IMG/VR virus record: IMGVR_UViG_3300046331_000080
Location: 1-39,215 of that record
DNA: 39,215 bases
Reading direction: 5' to 3' (one strand)
Origin: a virus
Below the pieces are notes generated by a model, which did not search any database, was not told where the DNA came from, and saw only the letters and a program-made list of their open reading frames with translations. Positions within the stretch are counted from its first letter, which is position 1; each line of letters opens with the position of its first letter. Positions 33,448 through 39,212 of this stretch are shown here, in pieces. A program made the position numbers and the translations under genes.

Positions 33448-33731
33448 AAGTACCTGTAGTCAACAGACAAGACTACACAATGTATTTAGAGAACTTTGCA
33501 GGTATGTTATGGTTTCATACAGATGTACATAAGTGGTCTAGTGAAGTTAAAACAAAGTACTTAGAAGATTTAAACTTATTACAATACTTAGTTAATGTGC
33601 CCTTAGTAGCATTAGTTGAAGAGGATAACAAGAAGCTTGCTAAGTTTGCAACATTAATAGGATTCAATAACATGAATACAATAAATTTAAACAATGGAAA
33701 AGTAGGCTACGTCTACGCAAGGAGTTTATAA
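33441..33731 (+). CDS. Small protein, possibly gp13-like (GNAT fragment), 96 aa
   Basis: The C-terminal half (VALVEEDNKKLAKFATLIGF) resembles the N-x2-xxKF-x3-IGF end of GNAT acetyltransferases and of the T7 gp13-type internal protein, which is also about this size and precedes gp14. The N-terminus ENFAGMLWFHTDVHKWSSEV lacks an obvious acetyl-CoA loop, so activity is doubtful. Its ATG overlaps the adhesin stop and its stop shares one base with the next ATG. Role inferred from order and weak resemblance. Confidence 0.55.
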   Translation: MVKVPVVNRQDYTMYLENFAGMLWFHTDVHKWSSEVKTKYLEDLNLLQYLVNVPLVALVEEDNKKLAKFATLIGFNNMNTINLNNGKVGYVYARSL

Positions 33732-34918
33732 TGGGTAAGTTAGTTAGTAGTGTAGCTAATATATTTACAGGTGCTGATGACACAAAAGCAGCAGGTGCAG
33801 CAGCATCAGCTCAGCAAGCGGAAGCAGCTAAAGCAGCGGCTGCGGCGGCAGCTTTTAGACCAGTAGGAATGACAAGTAGGTTTGGTTCATCTCAGTTTAC
33901 TCGTGAGATTGATCCTAAGACTGGGATGCCTTATGTCTCTAGTGCTGGTTATACAGCTGCTCCTGAGTTAGCTGGACTACAAGAAAGATTATTTAGTCAG
34001 TTTGGTCAAGGACTAACACAAGCAGAACAAATGCAACAGCAATCTGGAATGCTTGGGGATCAAGTAAGTCAGCTTTATGGTTTAGGTTCTGGATATTTAT
34101 CTGAATCTCCTGAAGCTGCTAGACAGCGTTACATTAGTCAGCAACAAGGATTAGTAGGTGGTTTAAATGAGCAAGCATTATCTGGAATTCGTAATCGTTT
34201 ATTCCAAACAGGTAGAAGCGGGTTAGCTACTGGCGGTACTTCTACAGGTATGCAAGCAACTAACCCTGAACTAGCTGCTTACTATAACGCATTAGCTCAA
34301 CAGAATGCACAGATCGCTGCAGGGGCTGATCAAGCTTCACAGCAACAGCAGACATTCGGTGCGGGTTTGTTAGGAACTGGTACACAATTACAGCAAGCAC
34401 AACAATCTGCATTATCAGGTGCATATTCTCCATTACAGTCTTTGTTAGGATTATCAGGAAACGTAGAGACCTTATCACAGATGCCTTATCAAATGGGTTT
34501 ACAACTAGGTACAGCATCTGTGCCGGGTCAAACAGCTGGTTCTCAGATATATAACCAAGGTATGTCACAAGCAGCACAGACTCAGTATGGTGCTGTTCAA
34601 GCTGCTAATGCTGCAAACGCTGGTTTGTGGGGTGGTTTATTACAAGCCGGTGCGACACTAGGTGCTGCAAAACTAGCTCCTGCAGCTATTGTTGCTTCAG
34701 ATGTTAGATTAAAAGAAAACATTAAACTAGAAGGTGTATTACCAAGTGGTTTAAATATTTATTCATACGAATATAAAGATGAATTTAAAGATAAATCAAC
34801 AGCAGGACATGGCAGATTTATTGGTGTCATGGCTCAAGAAGCTGAACAACTTATTCCAGAAGCAGTATCATTTGACAAAGATGGTTTCCGTCAAGTTGAC
34901 TATAGCTTAATTTACTAA
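33731..34918 (+). CDS. Internal virion protein with S74-like C-terminal chaperone motif
   Basis: A 395-residue protein with Ala/Gln-rich helical regions (AQQAEAAKAAAAAAAFRPVG; QQQSGMLGDQVSQLYGLGSG) and a C-terminal block ASDVRLKENIKLEG, YSYEYKDE, FIGVMAQEAEQL, VDYSLIY. That C-terminal block is the Peptidase_S74 intramolecular-chaperone signature, usually found on tail fibres and released by autocleavage. The catalytic Ser-Lys pair would be S and K in SDVRLKENI. It occupies the gp14-like position in the internal-protein run. Confidence 0.78.
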   Translation: MGKLVSSVANIFTGADDTKAAGAAASAQQAEAAKAAAAAAAFRPVGMTSRFGSSQFTREIDPKTGMPYVSSAGYTAAPELAGLQERLFSQFGQGLTQAEQMQQQSGMLGDQVSQLYGLGSGYLSESPEAARQRYISQQQGLVGGLNEQALSGIRNRLFQTGRSGLATGGTSTGMQATNPELAAYYNALAQQNAQIAAGADQASQQQQTFGAGLLGTGTQLQQAQQSALSGAYSPLQSLLGLSGNVETLSQMPYQMGLQLGTASVPGQTAGSQIYNQGMSQAAQTQYGAVQAANAANAGLWGGLLQAGATLGAAKLAPAAIVASDVRLKENIKLEGVLPSGLNIYSYEYKDEFKDKSTAGHGRFIGVMAQEAEQLIPEAVSFDKDGFRQVDYSLIY

Positions 34919-34927
34919 GGATAAATA

Positions 34928-36142
34928 ATGGCTGCTAAAAATATATACTCAACTCTTTTAGGGTATGACCCTTACGAGCAACAGTTACAACAACAGAAAC
35001 TATGGTCTGGCATGTACCAAGGTGCTTCTTCTCCATATGAAAAAATAGGACTTGCTTTGGGTCAACTAGGTGGGGTTGTTGGTGGTAAGTTATTTGGAAA
35101 CGAAGAAGCTAATCCTGTTAATCAGATAAATAAATTAACTACAGAAGCTTCTGCACAGTTTACACCTAACTCTGCCGAATATTTTAAATACATTGCTGAT
35201 AACACCCAAGATCCAAATGTAAAGCGTTTAGCAACTGAAGAGGCTGTTAAAGCTGAAGTAGCTCAAACAAAGGTAATGCGTGAAAACACAACTTTCTATA
35301 CTGCTAATCCTCAGCAAGCTACACAAGCGTTACAGGTTCTAGCTGCTCGTATTGAAGCTAATCCTAATGATGTAAATGCCTTACGTCAGTATGAATCTAT
35401 TGCTCAAGCTATGCAAGTAGGTACACTGGAAGATTACAACAAAGCAGAGAAGAGTGATTTAGAGATTACATCTAAGAAACAGAATATTCAAAAGACAGGC
35501 TTAGAGATTAAGAAGTTAAGAGATGAGCTAACTCCCGGTGAGCGAACAAAAATATCTAATGCTGATTTATATAAATTTAACAGTGATGTCAGAGCTGAGG
35601 TAAGTGCTCCTAAAGATAAGCTTTCTACAATTAGTGAACTTCAAACACTGCTAAAAGACGTTGAGAAGAATAATAACGTACAGTCTTATAACTTATTTAC
35701 AAGTTCTTTAGCTAAAGCTGCTGGTGATAATCGAGTAAGTGAAAAAGAAGTAGCTCGTTTAACAGGTGGTGGAAGTTTAATTACTAGAGGTATTGGTGGT
35801 TTAAGTATTGCTTTCACAGGTTTACCAACTGATGCTAAACTAGCTGAGATAAAATCATCATTAGATTTATTAGAAAAAGAAACAGCTGATAAATATAATA
35901 GTAAAGCATCTTCTTTAAGAGACATTTATAAAGAAAACGTACCTGATAGAATCATTAATAAGCAATTAGGTCAATGGGAAACTAGAGCTGAGAAAGTAGC
36001 AAGAGTAGCTAACGAAAAGAATGTAATGGGTACTAAAGCTTTTGATGCTGAACAAGCTAAACTACCTCCACGACCTTCAGGTATTGATCCTATGACTTGG
36101 AGATTTATGAGTGAAGAACAACGTAAACTATTTACTAGGTAA
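34928..36142 (+). CDS. Internal virion protein (gp15-like position), 404 aa
   Basis: A 404-residue, helical protein with an N-terminal glycine-containing segment (KIGLALGQLGGVVGGKLFGN), TPR-like helical stretches rich in A and Q (QVLAARIEANPNDVNALRQY), and a charged C-terminus ending MTWRFMSEEQRKLFTR. It may form part of the ejectosome that crosses the envelope during DNA entry, as T7 gp15 does. This is inferred from position and composition. AAGGATA lies before the ATG. Confidence 0.72.
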   Translation: MAAKNIYSTLLGYDPYEQQLQQQKLWSGMYQGASSPYEKIGLALGQLGGVVGGKLFGNEEANPVNQINKLTTEASAQFTPNSAEYFKYIADNTQDPNVKRLATEEAVKAEVAQTKVMRENTTFYTANPQQATQALQVLAARIEANPNDVNALRQYESIAQAMQVGTLEDYNKAEKSDLEITSKKQNIQKTGLEIKKLRDELTPGERTKISNADLYKFNSDVRAEVSAPKDKLSTISELQTLLKDVEKNNNVQSYNLFTSSLAKAAGDNRVSEKEVARLTGGGSLITRGIGGLSIAFTGLPTDAKLAEIKSSLDLLEKETADKYNSKASSLRDIYKENVPDRIINKQLGQWETRAEKVARVANEKNVMGTKAFDAEQAKLPPRPSGIDPMTWRFMSEEQRKLFTR

Positions 36143-36151
36143 GGATAGACA

Positions 36152-38814
36152 ATGGCTGAATTTACACTAGAACAGCAACAAGCAATAGCAATAGCAGAGG
36201 CAAAAGCTAGGGCAGCTGCTTTTGCACAACCTAAAGAAGAAGAAGAAAAGCCAGTAAGTCGATTAGAGTTTTTAGAGAATGCTCTTAGAGAGGGGCACCA
36301 AAAGGAATTGGTGGTGCAGCTGGTGCTATAGAAACAGTAACTCAAAAAGCCTTTATAGATCCTATGGCACAATTGTTTGAGGTTCTAGGATTACGTGATA
36401 GAACAAAAGAAGATATTGCATTAGCTAATAAAGGTCTTGTAGATACACTACAACAAAGATCATCATCATATACTGATCCGTTAGCTAAGATAACAGGTGG
36501 TAATGTTAACATGAAAGCACCTGACATTCTTACAAGATTCTTAGGATCAGGTATTGAACTTGCTACAGACCCTACTGCTTTATTTATGCCGGGTACTACT
36601 CTAGCTCGTAAACTTCCTACGCTTACTTCACTAGGTATTGTATCAGACGCAGGTGGTGAAGTTGGTGGTCAAGTAGAGAAAGCTATTACCGGTAAGGAAA
36701 CAGGTGCAGGAAGATTGCTTGGTTCAACCGCTGCAGGTCTTAAATCAGCTCCAGTAGCTACAGCAGTATCTAAAGGCATTGATTATACTACTAACGTAGC
36801 TGGTCAAGTCTACAATAAGTATAAAGCAGTTAAAGCAGATCCTTTAAAAGCTGAAGAATCAGTAGCAACGGGTTCTACTCAACGTCTATTAGAGAAAGCA
36901 GCTAATGGATATAAAGCAGGTGAACTTGATAAGATAGTAACTGACTTTAACAATATTAAACAATCTTTTGATAAAGAAAACCTACCTATATTGTTTTCTC
37001 TAGCTGATGATCCTCTATTAAGACAGCAAGCTGAACGCTTAGCAAAAGATCCTAAATATAGAGCAGGATTAGATAATGAGATTAAACAACTTAGTACCTT
37101 AATTGATTCTAAAGCAGAACAGTTATTTGGCTCTCGTTATTCTACAACAACTCCTGACTTTGTTAATGCTCTTCAGTTTCCAAAGGCTGCTAAGTCAATC
37201 ATGGCAGCACAAGACAAAGTTGCTAAGGTTGATCAGAAACTAATAGACTTAACAACTAAATTTATACCATCTCAGACAGAAGAGAAGATTGGTCGTGTAG
37301 CTGCTAACTTAGTAGAGATTAAGTCTCGTGCTATTAAAGATGAATTGTCTCCTGTATATGATGTTATTCTTCAAGATGCTAAGAAAGCTGGTGCTAAGTT
37401 ACCAGCAGAGTCAACACGCAACCTATATAACTTTGTAGTTGATAACAGACTACGGGATATCTTTGGTAAGGGTACTCCTTTAGATAATGATTTAGTAACT
37501 AACTTTTCTCCTAAACAGGGTGAGTTCTTTCCTGTAAACTTTGACACAGTAGATTCACTAAAAAGACGTGTCAATGAACTACAGCGTAAAAACTTAACAC
37601 CAACAGAAGAGCGTTTACTTACATCTTTTGAAGCACAGTTAAATACTGAACGTGCTAAGATTCCGGGTAACTTCAATGACCGATTAATGGCTGTTGATAA
37701 AGCTTACTATGAGCGTCTAGGTGTTCCTTTTAACGAACAAGCTATTAAGAACATTGACTCACGTAAGTATGCAGAACAGATTGCTCCTAAGATCATTGAG
37801 AACGGTTCAGCTACTCGTCAATTCTTAAACGTAGCTGGTGCAGACGGCATTCCTGTCGTACAGAACTCAATCATTGCTGATGTGTATAAGAGAGCTATTA
37901 AAGATGGTGCAATCAATCGTCCAGTACTAGCTAAGTATATCAAAGACAATGCTGAAGTGATTCGTCAAGTTCCCGGACTAGAGAAAGAACTAAACGCATC
38001 TTTAATTGATGATTCTAAACTACGTCTTAAGAAGGCAGAGTTAGATGAGAACGTAAAGGTACAAGAGAAACGACTAGCTGATAACTTTATTAGAGATGGT
38101 TTAACTGATTACAAAACTATTGTTAATAACTCACTAAGCAACCCACGATACCTATTAAAGGTTCAAAAGGATATCGGAGACTTGGACGCAGCTTCACAAA
38201 GAGGTGTTAGACAAGCTATTCGTGCAGAGGTAGTAGATATAGCTCGTAACTCACCTGATGGTGCTGTAGCATTCTTAACAAACCCTAGAAACAAACTTGC
38301 TGTTGATCAGTTGTTTGGTAAAACATATCAGAAAGATCTTTTAGATCTAGCTAAGATATCAGATCAACTATCAAAAGCAGACTTAAGTAAAATCAGTACA
38401 AGCATCACACAAAAGGATTTAGATCCACTAGCTAAGATTCAACCCGGTCTTGATATTCCTTATGTAACTTCTACTCTACGTGATAAAATATCAAGTGCAG
38501 TTCAAAAAGGTGTTCGTATAATAAGTCGTATTAACACTGCAAGAGCTGCTGAGAAAACAGATGATGCTATCTTCCAGCTTCTTGTTGATCCTAATGGTAT
38601 TAATAAAGTTAGAAATGCAGCTAAAGGTATGAGTTTTAAGATAGAGAATCCTGCTGACATGAGGAAGGTTCTAGACTCTTTAGGAGAGGCTATCCCTCGT
38701 GTTATCTATGGAGGAACTACTGTAGGTATTGAAGGCGGTCTAAACGCCCAACAGAACCTCCAGAACCCTCCTGTAGAAGATGATGACAACATCACTGGTG
38801 GTTTTGTACAATGA
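36152..38814 (+). CDS. Large internal virion protein (gp16-like position) with apparent -1 frameshift
   Basis: The best reading is a single protein of about 887 aa split by one missing base. The N-terminal frame starts MAEFTLEQQQAIAIAEAKAR at 36152 (AAGGAT upstream) and runs to a stop at 36329-36331. The downstream frame opens at 36289 with RGAPKGIGGAAGAIETVTQK and continues to 38814; without a shift it could start only at ATG 36364 (816 aa). Adding one G to the GGGG run at 36292-36295 joins them exactly. The rest is helical, Lys/Asp/Leu-rich and without a transglycosylase motif I can see. Ejectosome role inferred from position. Confidence 0.72.
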
Positions 38815-39212
38815 TACTACCGTTAGACGCAATACTAAGCATTGGATCTAAAGTACTTGATAAAGTATTCCCTGATCCTGCACAAGCAGAGCAAGCTAAG
38901 TTAAAACTAATTGAGCTACAACAATCAGGCGAACTAGCTTCTATTCAAGCTGATACTGCTGAGCAAGTAGAGTTAACTAAGAGACACGAAGCTGATATGT
39001 CTAGTGATTCATGGTTAAGTAAGAATGTAAGACCAATGACACTTGTTGGTTTGTTAGTATCTTATTTTATATTTGCTTCTGTTTCTGCTTTTGGTATTAA
39101 TGTGAATCAGGTTTATGTAGAGTTGCTAGGTCAGATGATTATGCTCATCGTCTCTTTTTACTTCGGAGGCAGGACACTAGAAAAGATTATTGATATAAAG
39201 AAAGGTAAGTAA
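38811..39212 (+). CDS. Holin, 3TM-like family
   Basis: A 133-residue protein with a charged helical N-terminus (FPDPAQAEQAKLKLIELQQS) and two clear hydrophobic segments (SKNVRPMTLVGLLVSYFIFA and YVELLGQMIMLIVSFYFGGR). I recognise the NVRPMTL plus FGGRTLEK pattern of the GTA-type 3TM holin family (PF11351 as I recall). It would permeabilise the inner membrane so the M15 endolysin can reach the wall. ATGA overlap with the preceding gene. GAAAGG followed by ACAT at the window's right edge looks like the ribosome-binding site and first two bases of the start of the next lysis gene. Confidence 0.85.
   Translation: MILPLDAILSIGSKVLDKVFPDPAQAEQAKLKLIELQQSGELASIQADTAEQVELTKRHEADMSSDSWLSKNVRPMTLVGLLVSYFIFASVSAFGINVNQVYVELLGQMIMLIVSFYFGGRTLEKIIDIKKGK

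Follow-up and report, generated by a model that had tools for sequence, protein, structure and literature searches.

Positions 36152-38814 of the window, the 39,215-base IMG/VR virus record analysed here over its full length, very probably represent a single gene whose frame has been broken by a one-base length change, an isolated event in or close to a run of four G residues, rather than a programmed frameshift. Comparison with homologues demonstrates, at the sequence level, one gene with a single ancestral frame, and the relatives carry this gene intact.

The gene appears in the window as two reading frames, all features given here being on the plus strand. The upstream ORF (ORF A, 36152-36328) runs from ATG 36152 to TAG 36326-36328, encodes 58 aa and has its own ribosome-binding site, AAGGA at 36141-36145, 6 nt ahead of the start codon. 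The downstream frame (frame B, 36289-38814) is open after TAG 36286-36288 and comprises 841 residues counted from 36289. Its first ATG lies at 36364-36366; upstream of this position no ATG, GTG or TTG start codon was found in frame B, nor was a ribosome-binding site motif found ahead of ATG 36364. Frame B is -1 relative to ORF A and the two share exactly 36289-36328, and nowhere else, so that the change of frame by -1 falls between the frame B stop at 36286-36288 and the ORF A stop at 36326-36328. GGGG is found inside this overlap at 36292-36295, followed by CCAAAAGG at 36298-36305. Re-reading of the frames thus bore out the initial annotation as regards the -1 relation and its limited overlap, the start and ribosome-binding site of the upstream part and the lack of such a site near ATG 36364.

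Codon-usage scores trained on the window's other genes were used to follow the coding signal. From 36152 to 36289, the frame of ORF A scored +24 bits and the other frames -38 and -43, while within the overlap frame B scored +11.8 bits versus -4.1 for the frame of ORF A. The best switch point was 36292/36295, at the G-run, with 44.5 bits, in agreement with the earlier proposal that had singled out this region. All switch points from 36289 to 36310 scored 41.9-44.5 bits, with a drop at later points, and the G-run and CCAAAAGG were indistinguishable as switch points by codon usage or by the homologue profile described below. Among the sense-strand genes of the window, only the 36152-38814 gene showed a strong coding signal ahead of its first start. 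The relation between the two frames exceeds chance.

Relatives of the interrupted gene were reached only by an indirect route. Used as direct queries against IMG/VR, neither the downstream protein nor its C-terminal half retrieved any, and the joined N-terminus and the preceding gene likewise retrieved none. No match was obtained among isolate phages, at the protein or DNA level, or among GTDB contigs. Searching from the S74-domain gene nearby gave 72 related loci. Where the flanks were intact, the slot after the second gene of the trio to which the interrupted gene belongs mostly held one long ORF of about 500-1115 aa; most of these ORFs were not homologous to the window protein, and two loci (L008, L012) held different multi-gene content. 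The slot ORF of L035 was homologous (25%). A two-sequence profile built from the window and L035 found 15 IMG/VR matching stretches, and a ten-sequence profile (tblastn) found 236, of which 80 were kept. The complete homologues numbered 69 distinct sequences (90 loci), with about 20-27% identity, each a single ORF of 818-918 aa, compared with about 887 aa for the joined window read. The alignment check proposed in the initial annotation was therefore negative for conservation of the split, which was present in 0 of the 69. One relative, L142 (2383-5033), carries a different frameshift, about 100 codons further on, whereas L130, 88% identical to it, is intact, which is the pattern of sporadic events.

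We asked whether the two frames read as one protein by scoring them against an N-terminal profile of 67 homologue N-termini from which the window had been left out. The joined reads scored 32.6-34.1 bits for any switch point between 36289 and 36310, in a single match stretch without gaps at the junction, where FLENALREG followed directly by APKGIGGAAGAIE was aligned with ylaEaarkGlagtvgavsgl of the profile. Taken separately, frame B scored 21.9 bits, the part from ATG 36364 17.2 bits and ORF A 5.6 bits. When the leader was shuffled (500 replicates), the mean was 23.9 bits (sd 2.3), and one replicate of the 500 equalled the real score. The end of the E[AG]xRKG motif falls at residue 48 in the joined read, the median position in homologues also being 48 (range 39-68, n=53). 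These data substantiate the earlier suggestion that the two frames are one protein: ORF A is the N-terminal leader of the interrupted gene, read through to a wrong-frame stop, and frame B, whose body was aligned with 52 homologues (alignment A3), is the body of the same gene.

The same comparisons bear on the possibility that the region holds two genes, the 58-aa ORF and an 816-aa protein translated from ATG 36364 by reinitiation. The ATG is present, the product would be close in length to the 818 aa of L035, and the N-terminal region varies across the family. Against this, the -1 frame is already coding upstream of 36364, given its score in the overlap, and other genes of the slot carry leaders of the ORF A kind as in-frame fusions. 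In four homologues (L074-L077) the alignment with open frame B begins at its second residue, upstream of ATG 36364 and, as in others, inside a continuous ORF; ATG 36364 is therefore not the ancestral start. Homologues cleanly divided into two genes with a conserved start at 36364, the outcome that would have spoken against a single gene, were looked for and not found. An independent start at 36364 was rejected on the missing ribosome-binding site together with the coding signal and homologue alignment upstream, and we consider the two-gene arrangement very improbable.

Could the frames instead be joined by a programmed or compensatory -1 slippage in this lineage, either at C-CAA-AAG / A-AAG-GAA (36298-36307) or by GGG on GGGG, perhaps assisted by the SD-like GAGGGG just upstream? 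Two sequences in the overlap, CCAAAAG (36298) and AAAGGAA (36301), fit two non-classical PRFect patterns as these can be deduced from the pattern names in PMC10885494, and such patterns are uncommon in the genes of the window, where 8.6% of 13-codon stretches have at least one. Switch points at these sites also score nearly equal to the G-run, and frameshifting that corrects an indel is an accepted category (PMC5009743). On the other hand, none of the 69 distinct complete homologues is split, of 50 relatives only 4 have GGGG at the motif, and the zero frame of the overlap contains no classical X-XXY-YYZ heptamer; on GGGG, GGG re-pairing is possible for one tRNA only. The downstream 100 nt (36296-36395) fold no better than shuffled sequences (z -0.09), and the sole local hairpin (36296-36313) encloses the putative slip site instead of lying downstream of it. 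Scans for Rfam families and tRNAs gave no hits. Shifting 48 codons into a virion gene would also lose most ribosomes to a 58-aa product without evident use.

Tail assembly chaperones and T7 gene 10 are the recurring phage frameshift cases described in PMC10885494 and PMC5009743. The window resembles such programmed -1 shifts (tail assembly chaperone G/GT, T7 gene 10A/10B) in its -1 relation and short overlap, but its split is unconserved and lacks a classical heptamer, and the shift lies near the start of the gene, whereas in G/GT and 10A/10B a functional first product is almost complete when the frame changes. We therefore regard slippage at either site as highly unlikely; compensatory slippage keeps this small share of probability because the searches, whose results may omit records very near the window, found no relative more than about 30% identical. 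Slightly less probable still is a more elaborate scheme in which a lineage-specific -1 shift at the non-classical C-CAA-AAG / A-AAG-GAA, with the upstream SD-like element, would yield a leader-bearing ejection protein and reinitiation at 36364 a leaderless form.

The isolated one-base length change thus remains the preferred reading. It would break the gene about 46-48 codons in and, instead of being a functional frameshift signal, would be an error in the contig (from sequencing or assembly) or a recent natural null mutation; it is the existence of about seventy distinct unbroken relatives that makes an error or chance mutation most likely. The initial annotation had left sequencing error, mutation and programmed shift side by side: the first two stand, with the relatives intact, while the programmed branch falls, with split and G-run unconserved, no classical heptamer and no stimulatory structure beyond chance. 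Should the change be real, with nothing to compensate for it, translation from 36152 would end after 58 aa and the virion protein would not be made in full. One mock-community benchmark (PMC6487183) counted fewer than 2 indels per 100 kb in viral assemblies built from short reads and scaffolded with long ones, about 23 in polished long-read assemblies and 474 in unpolished ones. The window, with a single such break in its 39 kb, agrees with a rare assembly error or natural mutation, and agrees less well with a long-read contig left unpolished. As in isolated frameshift indels of metagenome contigs, from which we noted no difference, this is a single event beside a homopolymer with intact relatives, and L142 shows another break elsewhere within the same gene family.

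Three consecutive genes, of 395, 404 and about 887 aa, precede a holin gene, and the interrupted gene is the last and largest of them; this arrangement suggested a probable ejection-protein trio. The first gene (33731-34918, 395 aa) has a C-terminal S74 chaperone domain (Pfam PF13884, PHROG 6121/4287); some of its Vibrio phage matches carry an annotation as DNA injection or transfer proteins, the match in Vibrio phage PVA1 being called a DNA injection protein. The second (34928-36142, 404 aa) has homologues at the same position in L002-L007, L016, L017, L019 and L048. The 3TM-type holin (38811-39212; PF11351, phrog_3427) lies directly downstream of the large gene. It is 80-86% identical to the holins of L002 and L010, where the adjoining large gene has no detectable sequence similarity to that of the window; mosaicism at the large gene/holin boundary is sharp.

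No sequence match for the large protein was found in the PDB. Its AlphaFold model is mostly helical and of low confidence (pLDDT 59; 53 sequences), only slightly better than an earlier, poor model from 10 sequences, and a PDB fold search with this low-confidence model gave no match at E <= 0.001. The best BFVD fold matches, each one protein of 910-916 aa from an uncultured member of the Caudovirales, are uncharacterised phage proteins, and one further BFVD match bears a lytic transglycosylase (LT_GEWL) domain. Podovirus ejection proteins have been described in terms of gene order and of a size range of 609-1337 aa for the gp16-like member (PMC8954989). Like T7 gp16 and P22 gp16 (PMC8954989), the window protein is the third and largest of its trio, falls within this size range, is mostly helical in its model, and shows rapid divergence and a mosaic N-terminus; no sequence or solved-fold match to any known gp16 was found for it, and it has no transglycosylase domain. 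This large helical virion protein would probably be the third, gp16-like member of a podovirus ejection-protein set, a role that we infer from position, size and composition.

Window positions 36289-38814 and L074-L170 define a large family of probable virion proteins, with 236 IMG/VR matching stretches and only marginal PHROG/Pfam matches. Three family members searched against the isolate-phage collection gave no match, and no relative of the family was found in the PDB. The leaders of homologous cores (L035, L074-L170) are 30-45 aa long and of six or more unrelated kinds, which start with MPTYTIDGKxY, MALDLTKLSDAELEAI, MDVTLPNGxVITDVP, MTEQEEFEFRLRFE, MADFDWESAQE or MALPAGFVLD. Reciprocally, the window leader (36152-36295), recognisable by TLEQQQAIAIA, opens single ORFs that occupy the corresponding slot in L028, L043, L045, L047 and L058 and whose cores are unrelated.

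These results settle the apparent split gene: the appropriate annotation for the region is a single large virion gene that is interrupted, and this contig gives no ground for claiming a frameshift signal. As a by-product, the analysis uncovered a family of probable ejection proteins without a solved structure, whose N-terminal leaders are exchangeable and may be packaging or docking signals.
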